Shown piece after piece: positions 13,072 to 22,996 of a stretch of DNA of 64,000 bases. Both the position numbers and the translations under genes were made by a program. The notes beneath the pieces are model-generated. The model ran no database searches. It was not told the DNA's origin and saw only the letters and a list, made by a program, of their open reading frames with translations. Numbering within the stretch: position 1 is the stretch's first letter; each line of letters begins with the position of its first letter. Location of the stretch: positions 1-64,000 of the forward strand of contig PDLQ01000021.1 of the NCBI GenBank assembly GCA_002591745.1, in the 5' to 3' direction. This stretch comes from Lewinellaceae bacterium SD302. GTDB lineage: Bacteria; Bacteroidota; Bacteroidia; Chitinophagales; Saprospiraceae.

Positions 13072-13197
13072 GACTGCGCGCGCCTGGTGAAATCGCTTGC
13101 GTTTTTACCAGACTAAAACTGCCCTGGCTTCTATTGGAGCTGGGGCAGACTTGAATAATCTAAATAATGAAATTGTTTAAATCTGTTTGAAAGGCAT

Positions 13198-13233
13198 AAA
13201 AAAACTCCAAAAGCTTTGTATAGCCTTTGGAGT
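13198..13233 (-). terminator. Minus-strand rho-independent terminator
   Basis: On the minus strand the stem ACTCCAAAGGC/GCTTTTGGAGT (13223-13233 with 13204-13214) is followed by seven T residues. No minus-strand protein gene ends here; it fits the end of the structured RNA at 13235-13354. Confidence 0.7.
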
Positions 13234-13234
13234 C

Positions 13235-13354
13235 GGAAGATCTTGACAAATACAGGGCTTGCCACCCTTTACTTATCACAGTCTGCCATATTGGAGAATA
13301 TAAATGTAGACTGAATCTAGATATCTAGCAAGCGATAAAACGTTAAGATCTTCC
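13235..13354 (-). ncRNA. Rod-shaped small RNA candidate, 6S-like
   Basis: Four nested helices form one long rod: 13235-13244 with 13345-13354 (10 bp, GGAAGATCTT/AAGATCTTCC), 13257-13262 with 13328-13333 (GCTTGC/GCAAGC), 13279-13284 with 13308-13313 (CAGTCT/AGACTG), and a terminal ATATT/AATAT hairpin around 13288-13301. Open internal bubbles separate them. A minus-strand terminator follows immediately, giving a transcript of about 155 nt. A closed stem, a central bubble and this length are hallmarks of 6S RNA, which binds RNA polymerase. The identity is inference from shape; no promoter was confirmed. The rest of the nrdA-HNH gap (13072-13197, 13355-13421) holds only short hairpins. Confidence 0.5.
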
Positions 13355-13421
13355 TCTTTTTAGAGGGATTAACTTGGCCGCCCCGCAAGTTGCTAAGGGC
13401 CAGCATAATACATAGCGAAAC

Positions 13422-13745
13422 ATGTATAGTTTGTTTTTTAGAAACCGCAACACCAAGCGGAACGGAACCCCATTTTCTTTATTTACCCGCCAAGCTGTCT
13501 GGAATAAAGCCAGCGTGATACCTGGATACAGTCCGGCGATATTGCGCAAGGATTCCTGTGGAATAATAATCCGTTGGGGAGACTACGGTAAAACCGATTC
13601 TCAGTATGGCTGGGAGATTGATCACGTACAACCCGTAGCAAAAGGGGGAAGTGACGAGTTGAGCAATTTGCAACCACTTCAATGGCAGAATAATCGCTAC
13701 AAGAGCGATACTTACCCATATTGGACTTGCAGATTCCGAGCATAA
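13422..13745 (+). CDS. HNH endonuclease domain protein
   Basis: Small nuclease-like protein of 107 aa, all HNH domain. The core is GWEIDHVQPVAKGG, then NLQPLQWQNNRYKSD, giving the His (DH), Asn (NL) and terminal Asn/His-position residues of the beta-beta-alpha metal fold. Stand-alone HNH proteins of this type are common in Bacteroidota, next to defence or mobile genes; its target is unknown. It marks the left side of the defence island and is followed by a 130-bp gap containing the promoter of the half-size HsdS. Confidence 0.85.
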   Translation: MYSLFFRNRNTKRNGTPFSLFTRQAVWNKASVIPGYSPAILRKDSCGIIIRWGDYGKTDSQYGWEIDHVQPVAKGGSDELSNLQPLQWQNNRYKSDTYPYWTCRFRA

Positions 13746-13821
13746 TTGATTTGGATGCTGCTCTGCAAAAGAGCGGAGCAGTATCCGATTTTAGAAAAAA
13801 GCTACTAGTTTTTAAAAATGC

Positions 13822-13852
13822 TTGCAAGTCTGATAGAGTAACTATATATTTG
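13822..13852 (+). promoter_or_regulatory. Bacteroidota-type promoter before hsdS'-hsdM
   Basis: The -7 box TATATTTG (13845-13852) matches TAnnTTTG exactly, and a TTG at 13822-13824 lies 20 nt upstream as the -33 element. The predicted start is about 15 nt before the ATG at 13875. Confidence 0.65.
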
Positions 13853-14458: not shown

Positions 14459-15934
14459 ATGCTAGATCAAGACACGATTAATAAACAGGTTTGGAAAGCT
14501 TGTGATACTTTCCGGGGTACGATTGATGCAGCTCAATATAAAGATTATATTCTGACTATGCTCTTCGTTAAGTACATCAGTGATGTACTCAAAGACAAGC
14601 GCGCTGCTTACGAAGAAAAATACGATGGCAATGAAGCCAGAATTGCACGGGCAATGAGTCTTGAGCGGTTCACGATCCCTGGATCGGCTACTTTCGAAAG
14701 CTTTTACGCCCGGCGCAATCAAGCTGATTTAGGTGAGGTGATCAATATCGCACTGGAAGAGATTGAGGAAGCCAACCGGGACAAATTAGCTGGTGTATTT
14801 CGCAACATTGACTTTGCAAAAGAATCTAATCTAGGACAGACCAAAGATCGGAATCGCCGGCTTAAAAATTTGCTGAACGATTTCAAAGACCTCGATCTAC
14901 GTCCCAGCAACTTAGCGGGTAATGACGTAATTGGAGACGCCTACGAATACCTGATCTCTAATTTTGCCAGCGACGCAGGCAAGAAAGCTGGAGAATTTTA
15001 TACACCGAGCAGAGTCTCTACGCTGTTGGCTAAATTAGTAGAACCTCAAGAAGGCAATCGCATTTGCGATCCAACTTGTGGCTCTGGTTCACTACTGATA
15101 AAAACGGCCAAAGAAGTCGGCAATCGTAACGTTAGCTTATACGGTCAGGAAGCGAACGGTAGCACCTGGGCCCTTGCTAGAATGAATATGTTCCTCCACG
15201 AAATGGACAATGCTACTATTGAGTGGGGAGATACGATCAATACGCCAAAATTATTGGAGAACGATAGTTTGATGACTTTCGATATCGTTGTCGCCAATCC
15301 TCCTTTCTCTCTAGACAAATGGGGCGCTGAAAATGCACCGGCGGATCAATACAAACGTTTTTTCCGGGGAACGCCACCGAAGAGTAAAGGCGATTACGCC
15401 TTCATTACGCACATGATCGAGACGCTCAACGAACACGGGAGGGCCGGGGTGGTGGTACCCCACGGCGTATTATTCCGGGGAGGCTCCGAAGGGAAGATTC
15501 GTAAAAAGTTTATTGAGGAAAATCTATTGAGCGCGGTGGTCGGCCTTCCGGCTAACCTTTTCTACGGTACCGGTATTCCCGCTGCCATCATGATTTTTGA
15601 TAAAGCTAAAGCAGATGATCAGTTGCTTTTTATCGACGCCAGCGCGGACTTTGACTCCAGTAAGAACCAGAATGTTCTTACCTCCGACCACATCGAGAAA
15701 ATTCTAACGACTTACCGGCAACGCTCTACTATCGATAAATATAGTTACCTGGCACCGCTGGCCGAAGTAGCGGAGAACGATTACAACCTCAATATCCCGC
15801 GCTACGTAGACACCTTCGAAGAGGAAGAGCCGGTCGATATCGCCGCCACTCAACAAGAAATCAAACAACTGAAAAGCGAGTTGAAAGCCGTGGAAGCGGA
15901 GCTGGCCGATTACCTGAAACAACTTGGCTACTAG
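14459..15934 (+). CDS. hsdM: Type I restriction-modification DNA methyltransferase
   Basis: M subunit, 491 aa, transferring a methyl group from SAM to adenine N6. It has an N-terminal helical domain (INKQVWKACDTFRGTIDAAQYKDYIL), SAM-binding motif I DPTCGSGSLL at about 204-213 and the catalytic motif IV NPPF at 280-283. The C-terminal coiled coil (QQEIKQLKSELKAVEAELADYL) contacts HsdS. It is complete and in the family's usual length range. The genes that follow are not hsdS but a Shedu nuclease and an AbiF module; the full hsdS comes 2.5 kb later. Confidence 0.95.
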   Translation: MLDQDTINKQVWKACDTFRGTIDAAQYKDYILTMLFVKYISDVLKDKRAAYEEKYDGNEARIARAMSLERFTIPGSATFESFYARRNQADLGEVINIALEEIEEANRDKLAGVFRNIDFAKESNLGQTKDRNRRLKNLLNDFKDLDLRPSNLAGNDVIGDAYEYLISNFASDAGKKAGEFYTPSRVSTLLAKLVEPQEGNRICDPTCGSGSLLIKTAKEVGNRNVSLYGQEANGSTWALARMNMFLHEMDNATIEWGDTINTPKLLENDSLMTFDIVVANPPFSLDKWGAENAPADQYKRFFRGTPPKSKGDYAFITHMIETLNEHGRAGVVVPHGVLFRGGSEGKIRKKFIEENLLSAVVGLPANLFYGTGIPAAIMIFDKAKADDQLLFIDASADFDSSKNQNVLTSDHIEKILTTYRQRSTIDKYSYLAPLAEVAENDYNLNIPRYVDTFEEEEPVDIAATQQEIKQLKSELKAVEAELADYLKQLGY

Positions 15935-16092: not shown

Positions 16093-17241
16093 ATGTATAC
16101 AACACCAAAACTCTCAAGAGAGGATATTGCGATGAACTCTCTTCCCAACCATCTTTACGTCAACGAAGTTCCAGAGCATAAGGTAAAGTTCTATCGGGTA
16201 GTACTTGAAGAAGATGAGTCAACAACGTATCAGGCTAGCACACGAACACAAATCCAATTAACGAGGAAGTTGACGGATGGCGAGTTCAGTAGGTTAGAGA
16301 TTGTTAAAATGGTTAGCGGTAAAGAAACCGGTCGAGTGGTACTACCTAAATTTACGCTGGAAGAAATGTACGGGTTCATGCAAATTATTGCAGGAATGGG
16401 CGTTGATGATTCAACTGCCAGAAGAAGCCTGATTGTAAACGAAAATTTGAAAAATTTAGACTCAATCACTCGCGAAGCAATAGTTGAAACCTTATCCGGA
16501 GCCGAAGGGATGGATGTCGTCAAAGAACTAATTGATAGCGGCGCATTGAATGAAAAAGACTTTGTGAACACTGGCTATCGTAGGGTTCAATTGGGCATTT
16601 TCTACAAATTGCTGTACGAGAACCATTTAGCGACTTACAAAGAGGAAGAAATGGGAAAGCCCAATACCAAAGACGAAATAGCGTGGCAGCATTTCTTCGC
16701 CAAAAATCCGTGGATATTTGGTCACGGATTGGGAGTTCGCTTCAACACTATTTTACAGAAGGAATTTGCCGCTTCCGATACTACCGCGGCGGGTAAGGAG
16801 CAAGTGAATGCCGATTTTCTGCTAGCGGACACCAGATTTACCACCTTCGTAGAATTAAAAAGACCGGATACACCACTTTTCGGACCTGCGAAGAACAGAG
16901 CAAGAGCCTGGAAGCTTTCTACGGAATTGCAAGACGCTAAGAGTCAGATACTGGAACAGAAGGCTTCTGGGACGCTAAAGTTGGAACAAACGCGAGACCT
17001 GACTGACGACCAAGGCCGTTTAATTACCCAGAGGGCGTACGACCCTCGCGTTATCGTGGTGATCGGTAGCTGGAGCGAGATAACGGATGATGTCTACCAA
17101 GAAAAGCTTGTTAAGCAGAAGACCTTCGAACTCTTTCGTCGTGACTCTCGTAACGTTGAATTCATTACTTACGACGAACTATACGAAAAGGCTCACCACA
17201 TTGTAACGAATGGACTGCCAGACCAAGCTTTAGCCGCATAA
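16093..17241 (+). CDS. sduA: Shedu immune nuclease (DUF4263)
   Basis: Defence nuclease of 382 aa. The C-terminal half is the DUF4263 domain: IAWQHFFAKNPWIFGHGLG, then the PD-(D/E)xK core with Asp241 (NADFLL), Glu254 and Lys256 (VELKRPDTPLFG), then the WKLSTELQDAKSQI helix. The N-terminal about 190 residues are a regulatory/sensor region. SduA alone protects against phage in known Shedu systems by nicking or degrading DNA. It is encoded between hsdM and the AbiF module, so it travels as cargo in the R-M operon. It starts at the first ATG after the structured element. Confidence 0.88.
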   Translation: MYTTPKLSREDIAMNSLPNHLYVNEVPEHKVKFYRVVLEEDESTTYQASTRTQIQLTRKLTDGEFSRLEIVKMVSGKETGRVVLPKFTLEEMYGFMQIIAGMGVDDSTARRSLIVNENLKNLDSITREAIVETLSGAEGMDVVKELIDSGALNEKDFVNTGYRRVQLGIFYKLLYENHLATYKEEEMGKPNTKDEIAWQHFFAKNPWIFGHGLGVRFNTILQKEFAASDTTAAGKEQVNADFLLADTRFTTFVELKRPDTPLFGPAKNRARAWKLSTELQDAKSQILEQKASGTLKLEQTRDLTDDQGRLITQRAYDPRVIVVIGSWSEITDDVYQEKLVKQKTFELFRRDSRNVEFITYDELYEKAHHIVTNGLPDQALAA

Positions 17242-17272: not shown

Positions 17273-17304
17273 TTTGATAGAGAACAAAAAATCTACTACT
17301 TTTG
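17273..17304 (+). promoter_or_regulatory. Promoter of the AbiF-associated RNA
   Basis: The -7 box TACTTTTG (17297-17304) fits TAnnTTTG exactly. TTTG at 17273-17276 lies 20 nt upstream, the canonical -33 spacing. Transcription is expected near 17310, directly before the first RNA repeat. Confidence 0.7.
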
Positions 17305-17309
17305 CGGTA

Positions 17310-17450
17310 ACAGAACCAACCACGCTTCCCGTCAGATCAGCGCAACAGGTATGGTCGTTGCCCGTTGTAAAGGTAGCTTTTACAGCTACTTATGAACGGG
17401 CCGAACCCGCCACGCTTCCCGTAAGATCAGCGCAAAGAGGCGGGTCTTTT
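17310..17450 (+). ncRNA. Two-repeat structured RNA upstream of abiF (antitoxin-like)
   Basis: Two 26-nt repeats, 17320-17345 and 17410-17435, differ at one base and are exactly 90 nt apart. Each sits in a hairpin: an outer stem (ACCA.CC/GG.TGGT for the first; ACCCGCC 17405-17411/GGCGGGT 17439-17445 for the second), an inner stem CGCT/AGCG and the same apical loop TCCCGTNAGATC. Between them a third hairpin GTAAA/TTTAC lies inside GCCCGTT/AACGGGC. The last hairpin is followed by CTTTTAATTT. Promoter, repeats, terminator and then toxin gene is the layout of RNA-antitoxin modules; AbiF-type genes are known to have an associated RNA. Matching to that family is inference. Confidence 0.75.
17405..17450 (+). 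terminator. Terminator at end of abiF RNA
   Basis: The stem ACCCGCC/GGCGGGT encloses the second repeat and is followed by CTTTT. The abiF ATG comes 14 nt later, so read-through would set toxin expression. Confidence 0.6.
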
Positions 17451-17463
17451 AATTTAGGTGGTT

Positions 17464-18363
17464 ATGCGTTATAGTAAACCAGCCATCACCATTAAAGCTC
17501 AGTTGCTGCAACTCAAGTCGCGTGGAATGAGCATCAGCGATCACGCGGAAGCCAGACATTTCTTACGGACCGTAGGTTACTATCGGCTGGCCGGTTATTG
17601 GTGGACGATGCAATCTAACGCCGAAACGCACCGCTTCCGCCGGGGAAGCAGTTTCAAGCGCGTCATTCAACGCTACAATTTTGATCGGGAACTTCGCCTG
17701 ATTGCACTTAATATGATTGAAAGGGTAGAGGTTGGATTGCGGACGCAGATGATCTACCAACTATCTTTGGCCCATCAGCCCCACTGGTTGGAAGACGAAA
17801 CACTGGCCAAAACCAGGGGGAATTGGATCAAGAACCGCAACAGTATAACGGAGGAAGTACGCCGCAGTAAGGAACAATTCATCTTAGAGCACAAGGCAAA
17901 GTACACCGAGGACGAGCGCCTGCCCCCATCCTGGAAAAGCCTGGAGGTCGTTTCCCTTGGAACGCTCTCTAAGGTCTATCGTAATATGAAAGACGATCTA
18001 CCGGAAAAGGCCACCATTGCCACCGGTTTTCAACTCGATGATTACAAAACGTTGAGTAACTGGCTCCACGCAATTGCGCTACTACGTAATGTCTCCGCTC
18101 ACCATTGCCGCTTATTTCAACGCACTATGGAAATCTGGCCGCGTCTGCCGCGTCGATTACCAGGCCCTTGGATGAATACGAGAAATGTAGACACAAAGTC
18201 AGTCTACGCCCACCTATGCTGTCTGCAATATCTTCTGCATACGATCAGTCCGAATAATCGTTTCCCCGACCGACTGGAACAACTTTTTCTTGATTATCCG
18301 CAAGTAAGGCACCGCGAACTCGGTTTTCCCGCCAATTGGCAACAACAGCCGGTTTGGCGATAA
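17464..18363 (+). CDS. Abi_2/AbiF-family HEPN protein (probable RNase toxin)
   Basis: Protein of 299 aa of the abortive-infection Abi_2 family. The N-terminus has the family signature (SKPAITIKAQLLQLKSRGM, then LRTVGYYRLAGYW). The C-terminal half carries the HEPN motif R-x4-H as RNVSAHH, Arg208 to His213, in the expected position for RNA cleavage. The ATG at 17464 is chosen over a GTG six bases upstream. It follows a repeat RNA with its own promoter and terminator, so the pair probably forms a toxin-antitoxin defence unit. It is inserted between sduA and hsdS. AbiF-like HEPN proteins are proposed relatives of Cas13. Confidence 0.88.
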   Translation: MRYSKPAITIKAQLLQLKSRGMSISDHAEARHFLRTVGYYRLAGYWWTMQSNAETHRFRRGSSFKRVIQRYNFDRELRLIALNMIERVEVGLRTQMIYQLSLAHQPHWLEDETLAKTRGNWIKNRNSITEEVRRSKEQFILEHKAKYTEDERLPPSWKSLEVVSLGTLSKVYRNMKDDLPEKATIATGFQLDDYKTLSNWLHAIALLRNVSAHHCRLFQRTMEIWPRLPRRLPGPWMNTRNVDTKSVYAHLCCLQYLLHTISPNNRFPDRLEQLFLDYPQVRHRELGFPANWQQQPVWR

Positions 18364-18415: not shown

Positions 18416-19666
18416 ATGAATAAAACAAACATAAAAAAAACCCCCAACGAAAATCGCCCCGGTTACCGGAAAACGAAGTTGGGGTGGCTGCCCGAAGAAT
18501 GGGAGGTGGTGAGATTGGAAAAAATTACTACAATCGGGAACGGTACAACACCCAGTAAAAAAGAAGATAGGTTTTGGCGAAATGGAAGTATTCCATGGTT
18601 GCCAACTGGAAAAGTGAATGATGCTGAGATTTGTGAAGCAGATCAGTTTGTTACTCCTCAAGCAGTAGAGGAAACATCGTTGAGATTACTGCCGAAAGAT
18701 ACAGTGCTTATTGCAATGATCGGTCAAGGTAAAACTAGGGGTAAAGCAGCTATAACTAGAATTGATGCAACTGTAAATCAAAATTTTGCTTTTATAATCG
18801 CTAATAATAAATTGAACTCCAATTACCTATTTTCTAAATTGACATTTGATTATTTAAAGCTAAGGGGAAGTGCAAGAGGCGGTGGACAGGAATCACTAAA
18901 CTGTGGAATTATAAAAAAGTATAAAATCCCCCTCCCCCCTCTCCCCGAACAAACCCGCATCGCTGATCTCCTGAGCAGCTGGGACCGCGCCATCGCCACC
19001 ACCGAAAAACTCCTCGCCGCCCAACGCCTCCGTAAAAAAGGCCTCATGCAACAACTGCTGAGCGGGAAAAAACGACTGCCGGGATTTAGTGGGGAATGGG
19101 AAGAGGTGAGGTTAGGAAATTATTTGATAAAACATAATGAGACTACCACGGAGAATAATCAATATCCTGTTCTGACATCATCAAGGAAAGGGCTTTTTTT
19201 TCAAAAGGATTATTACAAAAAGCAAGTCGCTAGTGAAAACAATATTGGATATAATGTGGTGCCCAGAAACTACTTCACCTATCGGCATATGAGTGACGAC
19301 TTGATCTTTAAATTTAATATAAATGTTTTATGTGACAAAGGTATGGTAAGCACTCTTTACCCTGTTTTTAGAAGCAATGATATTGATCAATATTATTTAT
19401 TGTGTTTGCTAAACGAAGGGGACGCATTTAAAAAGTATGCACTTCAACAAAAGCAAGGCGGTTCTAGAACATATATGTATTTTGGAAAACTAGAGAAACT
19501 TAAAATCAATCTTCCGCCCCTTCCCGAACAAACCGCCATTGCCAAGGTCTTATCCGCCGCGGACGCCGAGATCACCTTGCTGGAAGAAAACCTTGCTACT
19601 TTGCTAGTCCAAAAGAAAGGACTGATGCAACAATTACTGACTGGTGAAAAGCGCTTGCTGAGCTAA
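18416..19666 (+). CDS. hsdS: Type I restriction specificity subunit
   Basis: S subunit, 416 aa, setting the target sequence of the R-M complex. Two TRD/spacer halves are visible: TRD1 (LGWLPEEWEVVRLEKI to IPLPPLPEQTRIADLLS), a coiled spacer ending KKGLMQQLLSG, then TRD2 (GEWEEVRLGNY to INLPPLPEQTAIAKVLS) and the second spacer ending KKGLMQQLLTG. The TRD coding parts are clearly A+T-rich compared with the G+C-rich spacer parts, as expected for exchanged recognition domains. A CAAAGTAGCA motif lies in the second spacer. It is 24 bp upstream of hsdR. Confidence 0.93.
   Translation: MNKTNIKKTPNENRPGYRKTKLGWLPEEWEVVRLEKITTIGNGTTPSKKEDRFWRNGSIPWLPTGKVNDAEICEADQFVTPQAVEETSLRLLPKDTVLIAMIGQGKTRGKAAITRIDATVNQNFAFIIANNKLNSNYLFSKLTFDYLKLRGSARGGGQESLNCGIIKKYKIPLPPLPEQTRIADLLSSWDRAIATTEKLLAAQRLRKKGLMQQLLSGKKRLPGFSGEWEEVRLGNYLIKHNETTTENNQYPVLTSSRKGLFFQKDYYKKQVASENNIGYNVVPRNYFTYRHMSDDLIFKFNINVLCDKGMVSTLYPVFRSNDIDQYYLLCLLNEGDAFKKYALQQKQGGSRTYMYFGKLEKLKINLPPLPEQTAIAKVLSAADAEITLLEENLATLLVQKKGLMQQLLTGEKRLLS
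19594..19603 (-). repeat. CAAAGTAGCA dispersed motif, copy 6
   Basis: Context GACTAGCAAAGTAGCAAGG, in the C-terminal spacer of hsdS (read LATLLV). Confidence 0.8.
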
Positions 19667-19690: not shown

Positions 19691-22600
19691 ATGAAACACC
19701 TGCCCTCCTTTCGCGAAGACCACGTTTCCCAGGTGCCGGCCCTACAATTGCTGATCAATCTGGGCTACGAGTACGTGCCCCCACGGGAAGCCGAACGTCT
19801 GCGGGGCGGGCGTAAATCTAACGTGCTGTTCGAATCCGTGTTGCGGGAGCGGCTGGGGGAGATCAACGACATCACCCGGCGGGGAACGACCCATAAATTT
19901 TCGGAGGCCAACGTCAGCGCGGCGATACTGGCGGTGCGTCACCTGCCCTTGCAGGACGGCCTGATCAACGCCAACGCGGCCCTTTACGACCTGCTGACCC
20001 TGGGCAAGAGTTTCGAGGAGCGGATCGAGGGCGACCTGAAAAGCCACTCTATCCACTTTATCGACTGGGAGCGGCCGGAGAACAACCGTTACCAGGTGAC
20101 CGAGGAGTTGCCGGTGACCCGCAACGGGCGTTCGGATACCTACCGGCCCGACATCGTTTGCTACGTCAATGGTATTCCACTGGTCGTTATCGAGTGCAAA
20201 TCGCCCGCCCTGAGCGGGAACAAAAGTCCGGTGGAGCTGGGGATCGAGCAGCATATCCGTAATTTCAAGCGGGACGGCATTCGTGACCTTTACGTGTACA
20301 GTGGTTTACTGCTCAGTCTGGCCACCAACGCAGCCCGCTACGCTACGACGGGAACGAGCAAAGAATTTTGGTCGGTCTGGAAAGAGCGGCACGGCAACGA
20401 TGCTTTCGAGGCCCGCTACCTGAACCGGCTATCGGCGATCAAGAACCGCCCGCTAGCCAAAGCTACCAAGGATGAGTTGTTCAGTGAGCGCACCTATGGC
20501 TTTCACTACGCCCGCCGCTACTTCGATGGACTGGAAACGGAAAAGCGATTGATTACGGTTCAAGACCAGCTGCTGTACGACATCTGCCGACCCGAGCGAC
20601 TGCTGGATCTGGTACGGAATTTTACGGTTTACGACGCGGGGGTCAAAAAAGTAGCCCGCTACCAACAGTATTTCGGGGTGCGGGCGGCACTGGAGCGTAT
20701 CCGCCAATTGAAGCCGGATGGAAGCCGGCCCGGCGGCGTGATCTGGCATACCCAGGGTAGTGGTAAATCACTAACAATGGTAATGCTGGCGCAATTACTG
20801 GCTAATTTGCCGGTGGAGGAACTGGCCAGAGCGCAAACGGGATTACGGAAGGGAGAATTACCCGCCCCGGCGAGGATCATCCTGGTGACGGATCGGGTGG
20901 ACCTGGACGATCAGTTGTTCAAGACCTTCAAAAAGTGCCAGCAGGAAGTTGTACGGGCACGTACCGGAACCCACCTGTCTGAACTGCTGATGGACGACGG
21001 AGACGAAATCATCACCACCGTGATCAACAAATTCGAGGCGGCGGTGAGGCAAACCAAAACACCTTTTGATTCCCCCAATATTTTCGTGCTGATCGATGAG
21101 GGGCACCGCACCCAGTACGGAAGTTTCAACGTGAGTATGGAACGGGTTTTTCCCAAAGCCAGTTTCCTGGCGTTCACCGGGACGCCACTGATGAAAAAAG
21201 AGAAGAATACGGCGTTTAAATTCGGGGGCTACATCGGCTTGCCTTACAAGGTTAATGACGCAGTAGAAGACGGGGCGGTGGTTCCTTTGTTGTACGAAGG
21301 TCGTCACAACAGAATTGACCTGAACGAGGAGCCGATTAATCGCTATTTCGATCGGATTTCGGAGCCGCTGAGTGCGTACGGGCGTAATCAACTCAAGAAA
21401 AAATTCAGTACGGTAGCTCACCTGAACCGGGCCAAACAAGTGGTGTACGCCCGGGCCTGGGACATTAGCGAGCATTACCGCGATTTCTTTCAGACTAAGG
21501 GAGATAAATACAAACCCAAGGCGCAATTAGTAGCGCCCAGAATAGCGACGGCACTGCTGTATAAAAAGTACCTGGACGAAATCGGCATGGTAACCAGCGA
21601 AGTCATCGTTACCCGCGGTGATCAAAGAGAAGGGCACGAAGACGGCTTTCGGGAAGATAATGAGGAAAAAGCCTACGAGGATGAATACTTCGCCGCGATG
21701 CACGACAAATACGGCGATCAAAAACAATTTGAGGATAGTGTTATCAGTCAGTTCAAAAAGCAGGAGCATCCTGAGATATTGATTGTTGTCGCTAAACTAT
21801 TAACCGGCTTCGATGCGCCGGCAAACACGGTCTTATACTTGTGCCGCTCGTTAAAAGAGCATACGCTGTTGCAAGCTATCGCCAGGGTCAACCGGGTTTA
21901 TCCGGGTAAAGACTACGGATACATTATCGATTATTACGGCGTACTGGAGGATCTAAGCAGCGCGCTGGAGACCTATACGAGCCTAGATGAATTTGACGCC
22001 GAGGATCTGGATGGCGCACTAACAAATATCAAGGTAGAAGTGGTGAAACTACCCCAGGCACACGCCGAGGTGTGGGATATTTTCAAGACGATAAGGGAGC
22101 GAAAAGTAGAGCCTACGGTCTACGAAGAGTTTCTGGAGCCGAAAGACCGGAGAGATATCTTTTATGAAAAACTGACTGCATTTGCGAAGTTGCTCAAGAT
22201 GGCCTTGTCGACGGTAGATTTTGTTGAACAAACATCTGCTACAAAAATAGACGACTACAAAAAGGACTTGAAATTTTTCCTGCAACTCAGGGTAGACGTC
22301 AAACGACGCTATAACGACGAATTGAGCTACCGTGAGTATGAACCGAAAATTCAGAAATTGGTGGATAGTCACATTACTACGGTCGGTGAGACGCTAAAGG
22401 TTACGGAACTCGTAGATCTTTTTGATCCGAAACAGCGGGAGGAAGAATTAGCCAAGATCAGTAGTGTAGCCGCTCAGGCAGACCACATTGCCAGCCGCAC
22501 GACCAAGGCTATCAATGTGAAAATGGACGAAGACCCCATCTACTACAAGAAACTGGCCGAATTGATCCGGGATACGATTGCGGCTTATCACCAACGGCGA

Positions 22601-22996
22601 ATTGACGAAGCTGAATATCTGAAACGGATCAAAGAGCAAGAAGATCGGTTCTTTAACGGCCGGTCAGATGAGGCTCCGGAAGCTCTAAAGGGGCGGGAAG
22701 CAGCACTTACATTTTACGATTTTAGCCGTGATTCGTTTACGGATGAGGCGCTGTTGAAAAATGATTTTCACGTTGAGGTAGCACTGGCGATCGAAGACGT
22801 TATGCTAAGGAATATTTACCTGAACGGACAAAAGATCGTTGACTGGGTTAACAATACGGATATCGCCAATCGCATCCAGTTACAAGTTGGTGACCGCATC
22901 TATGATTTGCTGGACAAGTATAAACAGCCAATAAACTGGGAGGCCATAAAAATTATCGAATCCGGTTGCCTAAAAGTGGCTTTTAATAAGTACTAA
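19691..22996 (+). CDS. hsdR: Type I restriction endonuclease, R subunit
   Basis: ATP-dependent translocase/nuclease, 1101 aa. The N-terminal PD-(D/E)xK nuclease has Asp in YRPDIVCYVNG and ExK in VVIECKSP. The SF2 motor has Walker A QGSGKS near residue 356, Walker B as DEGH at 469-472, FTGTPL (motif III) and QAIARVNR (motif VI). A long helical C-terminus binds the methylase core. It is complete. Its TAA overlaps the ATG of the DUF45 gene by one base (TAATG), which suggests translational coupling. Confidence 0.96.
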   Translation: MKHLPSFREDHVSQVPALQLLINLGYEYVPPREAERLRGGRKSNVLFESVLRERLGEINDITRRGTTHKFSEANVSAAILAVRHLPLQDGLINANAALYDLLTLGKSFEERIEGDLKSHSIHFIDWERPENNRYQVTEELPVTRNGRSDTYRPDIVCYVNGIPLVVIECKSPALSGNKSPVELGIEQHIRNFKRDGIRDLYVYSGLLLSLATNAARYATTGTSKEFWSVWKERHGNDAFEARYLNRLSAIKNRPLAKATKDELFSERTYGFHYARRYFDGLETEKRLITVQDQLLYDICRPERLLDLVRNFTVYDAGVKKVARYQQYFGVRAALERIRQLKPDGSRPGGVIWHTQGSGKSLTMVMLAQLLANLPVEELARAQTGLRKGELPAPARIILVTDRVDLDDQLFKTFKKCQQEVVRARTGTHLSELLMDDGDEIITTVINKFEAAVRQTKTPFDSPNIFVLIDEGHRTQYGSFNVSMERVFPKASFLAFTGTPLMKKEKNTAFKFGGYIGLPYKVNDAVEDGAVVPLLYEGRHNRIDLNEEPINRYFDRISEPLSAYGRNQLKKKFSTVAHLNRAKQVVYARAWDISEHYRDFFQTKGDKYKPKAQLVAPRIATALLYKKYLDEIGMVTSEVIVTRGDQREGHEDGFREDNEEKAYEDEYFAAMHDKYGDQKQFEDSVISQFKKQEHPEILIVVAKLLTGFDAPANTVLYLCRSLKEHTLLQAIARVNRVYPGKDYGYIIDYYGVLEDLSSALETYTSLDEFDAEDLDGALTNIKVEVVKLPQAHAEVWDIFKTIRERKVEPTVYEEFLEPKDRRDIFYEKLTAFAKLLKMALSTVDFVEQTSATKIDDYKKDLKFFLQLRVDVKRRYNDELSYREYEPKIQKLVDSHITTVGETLKVTELVDLFDPKQREEELAKISSVAAQADHIASRTTKAINVKMDEDPIYYKKLAELIRDTIAAYHQRRIDEAEYLKRIKEQEDRFFNGRSDEAPEALKGREAALTFYDFSRDSFTDEALLKNDFHVEVALAIEDVMLRNIYLNGQKIVDWVNNTDIANRIQLQVGDRIYDLLDKYKQPINWEAIKIIESGCLKVAFNKY

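Follow-up and report, generated by a model that had tools for sequence, protein, structure and literature searches.

A candidate small RNA gene divergent from a tiny HNH nuclease gene in type I restriction islands of Bacteroidota, with a segment matching its own promoter in relatives

Introduction

Promoter-matching small RNAs encoded beside defence systems have a precedent in the CreA RNAs of CreTA, as described in PMC9458426, and 6S RNA in Bacteroidota is a subject, at least in part, of PMC2864571 and PMC9723704. Regarding promoters of the phylum, PMC6847099 gives the consensus of Flavobacterium johnsoniae as TTTG/TANNTTTG, with G at −5. The locus analysed here lies in a contig of Lewinellaceae bacterium SD302 (PDLQ01000021.1), of which a stretch of 64,000 nucleotides, referred to as the window, was examined. 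A minus-strand element at 13198–13354 had been flagged there as a rod-shaped RNA with a terminator, possibly 6S RNA, at the left edge of a defence island. The 6S label, plausible but unsupported, gives way in the present study to a small-RNA family tied to a nuclease gene and to restriction islands. Within certain restriction islands of bacteria, a small RNA divergent from a tiny HNH gene looks like an undescribed family: as far as the partly accessible sources go, a literature search for an HNH gene together with a small RNA in restriction islands found no description of it.

Results

The flagged element and its fold

The four nested helices reported in the initial annotation are indeed present at their place in the sequence, spanning 120 nt: GGAAGAUCUU/AAGAUCUUCC of 10 base pairs, GCUUGC/GCAAGC and CAGUCU/AGACUG of 6 each, and AUAUU/AAUAU of 5. 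The minus-strand terminator is likewise borne out, with a stem of 13 pairs followed by seven T (Table 1). A 181-nt stretch, which takes in the terminator hairpin together with the core, has a predicted fold of −57.4 kcal/mol as compared to −36.3 ± 3.7 kcal/mol for shuffled sequences (z −5.7; 0 of 200 shuffles as good), and none of 100 shuffles equalled the 10-bp repeat abutting a terminator. The rod shape, by contrast, is not the preferred fold. Helix 2 has a pairing probability of about 1% and helix 4 of 44–62%; the 120-nt core gives −24.7 for the rod as drawn and −33.5 for the rod completed, compared to −37.4 for the best fold, which is a branched junction closed by the 10-bp helix.

Table 1. 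Position of the flagged element, its parts and the genes of the surrounding island in the window
Feature	Position	Strand	Remark
Small-RNA gene as flagged	13198..13354	−	10-bp inverted repeat, inner hairpins, terminator
Left arm GGAAGATCTT	13345..13354	−	Runs into degenerate box TAACGTTT
Right arm AAGATCTTCC	13235..13244	−	Directly before terminator
Hairpin UGAUAAGUA/UAUUUGUCA + AGGG/CCCU	13244..13278	−	Top-scoring site for the relatives' covariance model
Loop motif GGTGGCAAGCC	13256..13266	−	Counterpart in relatives GGTGAYAARCC
Extra hairpin CAGUCU/AGACUG	13279..13313	−	Absent from the five relatives
Intrinsic terminator stem-loop	13203..13234	−	Then T run 13204–13198
Short hairpin CCTCTAAAAAGAGG	13353..13366	−	Just upstream of left arm, read from sequence
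HNH endonuclease, 107 aa	13422..13745	+	Divergent from RNA
Half-length HsdS, 195 aa	13866..14453	+	31–38% identical to half-HsdS of the five relatives
HsdM	14459..15934	+	71–77% identical to HsdM of the five relatives
Shedu SduA	16093..17241	+	Island cargo
Abi_2 / AbiD protein	17458..18363	+	Island cargo
Full-length HsdS	18416..19666	+	
HsdR	19691..22996	+	

Minus-strand reading frames of at least 60 aa located just upstream (13343–13549, 13479–13682 and 13483–13827) all run antisense to the HNH gene. The canonical promoter TTTG/TAnnTTTG was not found for the minus-strand element in the window. The nearest minus-strand sigma-70-like site ends 209 nt upstream of the element, and the box TAACGTTT at the expected promoter position differs from the consensus at two positions. 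Judging from the sequence, the RNA predicted at 13198–13354 is probably real: the minus strand plausibly encodes a separate small RNA that has its own terminator, and it is the 6S identity in the original proposal that falls away.

Search for a 6S RNA and for direct relatives

No Rfam model reached its gathering score in the window, leaving the 6S identity unsupported, and the 6S models gave no match at E ≤ 10 within the kilobase around the element. The 6S model RF00013, which as a control matched in 6 of 14 genomes, had no match in the element's own genome; in 21 genomes of the genus it did not once pass its cut-off, and a single weak match appeared elsewhere (E 0.38). The 6S-Flavo model RF01685 had no match in the own genome either, but also none in any control genome. 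Among other Rfam families, the sole nearby match at E ≤ 10 was to GlsR23, a HACA-box snoRNA family, and it was dismissed, scoring 15.2 bits where the cut-off is 100 (E 2.8). The element lacks a blastn relative at E ≤ 0.001 in 20 same-genus genomes, which is unlike a housekeeping RNA. Although some extended pairing with bubbles is possible, the combination of no model match, no genus-wide relative and a rod that is not the preferred fold argues against the 6S reading, as do a gene that is lineage-restricted and part of an island and, in the relatives introduced below, a predicted transcript that begins inside the supposed closing stem. We consider the probability of a 6S RNA at this place to be next to negligible.

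The element is unique in its own genome by blastn, and no relative was found in 59 other genomes, the 20 of the same genus among them. Of 398 family genomes (own included), 282 gave matches at E ≤ 1, and two besides the element itself reached E ≤ 0.001 (G237 at 2.5e-4, G258 at 5.7e-4). When 28 such weak-match loci were re-aligned, they scored 10–25 and 27 of them lay above their own shuffles, as picked best matches would; all were put down to chance, their alignments being of about the same short length as the BLAST match itself. Searched against 199 genomes, a model of the window element alone recovered only itself. There was no match to plasmids or Escherichia coli genomes and one 38-base match to phages (E 0.1). 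That the 3′ end of nrdA holds a paralogous copy, an idea prompted by two shared words, was unsupported (score 9.0; 140 of 200 shuffles as high).

The island around the element

The placement of the element at the left edge of a defence island was correct. The HNH gene, starting 67 nt from the left arm, leads a type I restriction island in the order HNH, half-HsdS, HsdM, Shedu, Abi_2, HsdS, HsdR and YgjP-type peptidase. The left neighbour is nrdA, convergent with the element; by eye, nrdA is followed by a different sequence in the 19 other genomes of the genus that had a match to it. The idea that the RNA gene serves as the integration site finds no support: relatives carry the RNA inside the island, beside HNH, so that the small RNA looks like island cargo.

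Separate observations concern nrdA and the Abi_2 region. Just after nrdA in the window (13118–13152), a plus-strand hairpin CTGCCC/GGGCAG resembles the nrdA terminators of relatives and is without a T run, as if the island had cut it off. In another genome of the genus (G002:C24; L014 and L022, at about 9.4 and 14.5 kb), the terminal 200 bases of nrdA are duplicated. The two copies share about 95% identity and are separated by about 5 kb, as would result from integration of an element that copied the nrdA 3′ end; in this genus, nrdA may serve as an attachment site. A short ORF (17274–17474) upstream of the Abi_2 gene encodes the repeated motif EPxTLPVRSAQ. The DNA there is therefore repetitive, and it could hold a non-coding partner of Abi_2.

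Five relatives with a small RNA beside HNH

At several HNH loci, a terminator preceded by an inverted-repeat arm is located upstream of the HNH gene on the opposite strand. Relatives of the window HNH, sought at E ≤ 1e-15, are present in 6 of 198 other family genomes; on genome contigs there were 376, of which the best 80 were taken. Five distinct RNAs align well, namely L078 (Puteibacter caeruleilacunae), L056 (= L102), L058 (= L127) and L059 (= L114), all three from Saprospiraceae, and L075 (Chitinophagales). These five other Bacteroidota lineages have the same HNH/half-HsdS/HsdM island with the small RNA at the same place and on the same strand. The order is half-HsdS, RNA, HNH, HsdM and HsdS in all five loci, with the HNH start 62–94 nt from the RNA; the start of HsdR is seen in four, while the stretch of L078 ends before HsdR would come. 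The type I system of the window and of the five relatives thus has a half HsdS besides the full one.

A covariance model built from the five RNAs with the window excluded, R2, recovers these RNAs and their copies at 82.6–92.1 bits from 91 sources, along with one weak extra (L115; 17.5 bits, E 0.36) that was judged chance. R2 matches 5 of the 79 genome-contig HNH loci searched, which indicates that only a minority of HNH loci have the RNA; the HNH tree, poorly resolved as it is, does not group the RNA carriers together. The 298 family genomes yielded three strong R2 matches, all beside HNH. Weaker ones in G022, G105 and G296 (E 0.014–0.037) lie in or by other coding genes, with no HNH seen by eye in the flanks, and were judged chance. 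Since R2 found nothing at E ≤ 0.01 in 395 genomes across the phylum and viral contigs gave no match to a gapped pattern, the family looks rare. There was also no R2 match in the five viral HNH loci searched (L143–L147, of 30). Three loci (L062, L071 and L142) are similar in architecture but have no R2 match, and they are not counted as members. Two of these have, beside HNH, a small RNA-like element with a terminator and, convergent to it, a gene for a protein of 124–127 aa (L071 4411–4791, L142 4442–4813); the two proteins, one from a Flavobacterium and the other from a Rhodothermia genome, share 52.5% identity.

Relatives of the window half-HsdS are present in 15 of 203 other family genomes, each a half-length HsdS before HsdM (L189–L203). 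In four of these 15 loci, HNH is present within the flanks retrieved (about 1.5 kb); three of the four carry the RNA and the fourth is masked. Among the 11 loci without HNH, none shows a confident R2 match, the weak one in L197 (18.4 bits, E 0.013, 23% G+C) having been judged chance. In L194 and L195, both without HNH, the matches to half-HsdS and HsdM lie 20–22 bp apart, hence the RNA and the HNH gene look like a cassette inserted between these two genes in other islands.

Covariation accompanies the proposed structure. In the MAFFT alignment A4 of the five RNAs, 15 of 25 pairs change on both sides and 90.2% of the cells pair, with a covariation score of 0.560 compared to 0.223 for shuffled and 0.092–0.208 for slid alignments, in a structure that was derived from the same five sequences and is somewhat favoured by that. 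Taken alone, the inverted repeat has 7 of 9 pairs changed on both sides, and the hairpin 7 of 13. In a weaker control with further pair types, 11 of 500 shuffles were as high for the whole structure, 63 of 500 for the repeat and 81 of 500 for the hairpin; for hairpin pairs changed on both sides, it was 12 of 500. The hairpin loop of the five relatives reads GG-UGAYAAR-CC. In L075, a 13-bp inverted repeat AGTAACGAGTAAA, which looks like a small inserted element, separates the right arm from the conserved AAGTCTTA terminator.

A promoter and its complement

All five relatives have TTTG-N19-TAnnTTTG on the RNA strand, as does L071. The pattern with spacers of 18–20 occurs at 48 sites in the 2.68 million strand-bases of all loci collected, the five relatives and their copies included. 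Counted from the consensus, the predicted start is the G of GC[A/U] in each of the five, and the predicted transcripts comprise 92–96 nt, or 128 nt in L075 with its insert. The position of the promoter pattern excludes the left arm from the transcript and assigns it to the spacer of the promoter, beside the −7 box; the right arm in the relatives is an 8–12-nt segment near the RNA 3′ end, complementary to the RNA's own promoter spacer. The predicted folds leave 5–9 nt unpaired ahead of the terminator, and in four of five cases the hairpin is extended by the first bases of the right arm (six bases in L078); the transcripts folded begin one base later than those used for the duplex energies below.

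G–U pairs are absent from the repeat (0 of 42 paired cells) and present in the hairpin (7 of 55; Fisher p 0.018), as is expected if only the hairpin is an RNA–RNA helix. A covarying repeat without G–U is what pairing at the DNA level, or pairing of RNA with promoter DNA, would leave, and an RNA matching its own promoter suggests self-regulation, a guide or an operator. The last of these is the main rival we keep. An island DNA-binding protein would bind a half-site in the promoter spacer together with its inverted copy at the gene end, and the RNA hairpin would be a separate matter. The repeat, which has no G–U pairs, would suit such an operator; the left arm falls between the boxes at −33 and −7, where repressors bind; the arms would both change with the specificity of the protein; and in the five relatives they are placed at a near-constant distance of 59–63 bp, which is about six helical turns. 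Half-sites so distant need looping, however, and in the window the arms are 100 bp apart. Moreover, the right arm ends at the terminator or at most 2 nt from it, except for the insert in L075, a position that speaks against the operator. Overall, we rate it as somewhat unlikely.

When up to 2 mismatches were allowed, the own genome of the window gave 23 promoter-like matches to the left arm, one of which is the element itself; the control pattern read backwards, in which the often rare word CTAG occurs, returned 4. Ten of the 23 sites were read and showed no second promoter-like target, the nine other than the element being located in open frames of at least 186 codons, with no TTTG at −33.

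Relationship of the window copy to the RNA family

The sequence makes it likely that the window element belongs to the RNA family of the HNH cassette, as a diverged member. Position, strand, repeat, loop motif (GGUGGCAAGCC) and terminator are common to the window and the relatives. In the window, the element is divergent from HNH, less than 100 nt from its start, in a half-HsdS/HsdM island; it has the inverted repeat whose right arm abuts an intrinsic terminator; and next to the right arm it has a hairpin with the loop GG-UGRNAAR-CC, one mismatch from GGTGAYAARCC, under a loop pattern that was widened after the window had been seen. A descriptor of repeat and terminator found 54 places in 2.56 million strand-bases, in which L056, and apparently L058 and L059, were covered only as the copies L173–L175. 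Eight of these places (five distinct, the window included) hold the loop motif, and all eight are beside HNH.

With the filters off, R2 ranks the window hairpin first in the 350-nt gap (both strands searched), on the right strand, at 6.9 bits and E 0.17; in the 64-kb window at E ≤ 1, it did not find the element. Sequence similarity of the window copy taken alone is not significant, 127 of 2000 shuffles being as high. The promoter TTTG-N19-TAnnTTTG, present in all five family members, is absent in the window, and the copy there differs by its extra hairpin, its longer arm spacing and the gene order, in that the RNA–HNH pair precedes the half-HsdS, which it follows in the relatives.

The degenerate promoter, the weak R2 score and the uniqueness of the element in its genome by blastn would also suit a decayed or chance structure, that is, a cassette that has lost its RNA and retains hairpins as leftovers without a transcript. 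Yet a perfect 10-bp repeat abutting a strong 7-T terminator, with a fold z of −5.7, and a loop motif on the right strand would be unusual leftovers, and we give such decay a low probability.

The HNH protein

The window HNH is 51–60% identical to the HNH of the five relative loci. By sequence, its nearest solved relatives are Cas8f-HNH (E 1.3e-5) and then ZRANB3 (0.033) and Cas9 (0.041) or weaker ones. Its structure model is of middling confidence (pLDDT 76.6), and the fold search gave no match at E ≤ 0.001, the best being the Gme HNH nicking enzyme at 0.26. Among the proteins of the island, none known to load an RNA guide was recognised. Abi_2 as a partner of the RNA was set aside because none was recognised, by eye, in the ORF lists of the five relatives.

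Discussion

Considered as a whole, the locus is best explained, with a confidence that we put at about even, by a small RNA of an HNH cassette having a promoter-matching segment. The element at 13198–13354 would be a diverged copy of a small-RNA gene forming a two-gene cassette with the divergent HNH nuclease gene, and the cassette would be at home in one lineage of type I restriction islands of Bacteroidota (half-HsdS, HNH, HsdM, HsdS and HsdR). In the relatives, the sequence shows a promoter of sigma-ABfr type and a predicted transcript laid out as a covarying hairpin, an 8–12-nt segment and an intrinsic terminator, in that order; the segment is complementary to the spacer of the RNA's own promoter, and both arms change together. 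We infer that the segment may act on the promoter DNA of its own gene, together with a protein partner that could be the HNH or another island protein, and that this action would limit synthesis of the RNA or mark the locus as self. The window may have the same system, its promoter being decayed or replaced. That pairing with the own promoter is the working mechanism we regard as possible but rather doubtful.

A hairpin, a seed and a terminator make up the usual layout of small RNAs, and the predicted transcripts fold about in this way. An ordinary sRNA, acting in trans or as a cis-antisense RNA on messages of the island or the host, could be envisaged; the RNA of the five relatives runs antisense to the stretch that separates half-HsdS from HNH. 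The duplex energies with the start regions of half-HsdS, HNH, HsdM, HsdS and HsdR are, however, no better than with shuffled targets (z −1.5 to 1.9, with no pairing consistent from locus to locus; for the window, with a guessed transcript start), and ordinary regulation of messages does not explain why the segment matches the RNA's own promoter. We therefore hold an ordinary sRNA to be unlikely.

In a bolder version of the promoter-matching account, the RNA and the small HNH would together constitute a minimal RNA-guided unit of two parts, carried by type I restriction islands. The hairpin would be the protein-binding scaffold and the 8–12-nt segment before the terminator would be the guide; the own promoter, beside TAnnTTTG, would present a built-in self target for autoregulation, and HNH would cut or guard when the balance is disturbed. 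If true, this would be a guide-RNA system without Cas9, IscB or TnpB; we regard it as very unlikely. Independently of this version, a 3′ segment covarying with its own promoter is an unusual pattern, and it would imply a new autoregulatory RNA, a nuclease guide or an unusual operator.

The comparison with known systems brings out what is particular to the cassette. Type I restriction–modification islands with cargo likewise comprise HsdM, HsdS, HsdR and accessory defence genes; the half-HsdS and the RNA–HNH pair are extra here. 6S RNA and 6S-Flavo are likewise small RNAs of similar length with their own terminator, whereas the window RNA has no match to their models and is tied to an island HNH gene, and the closing stem of 6S RNA is missing from the predicted transcript in the five relatives. 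The HNH domains of the RNA-guided effectors Cas8f-HNH, Cas9 and IscB are the closest solved sequences to the window HNH, but the HNH here stands alone, at about 100 aa. The CreA antitoxin RNA, as PMC9458426 portrays it, likewise has a short segment complementary to a promoter and is encoded beside a defence system. A promoter-matching segment of the CreTA type is present in the five relatives, where it concerns their own promoter; CreA, in contrast, matches the promoter of the toxin RNA and makes use of Cascade and CRISPR-like repeats (PMC9458426).
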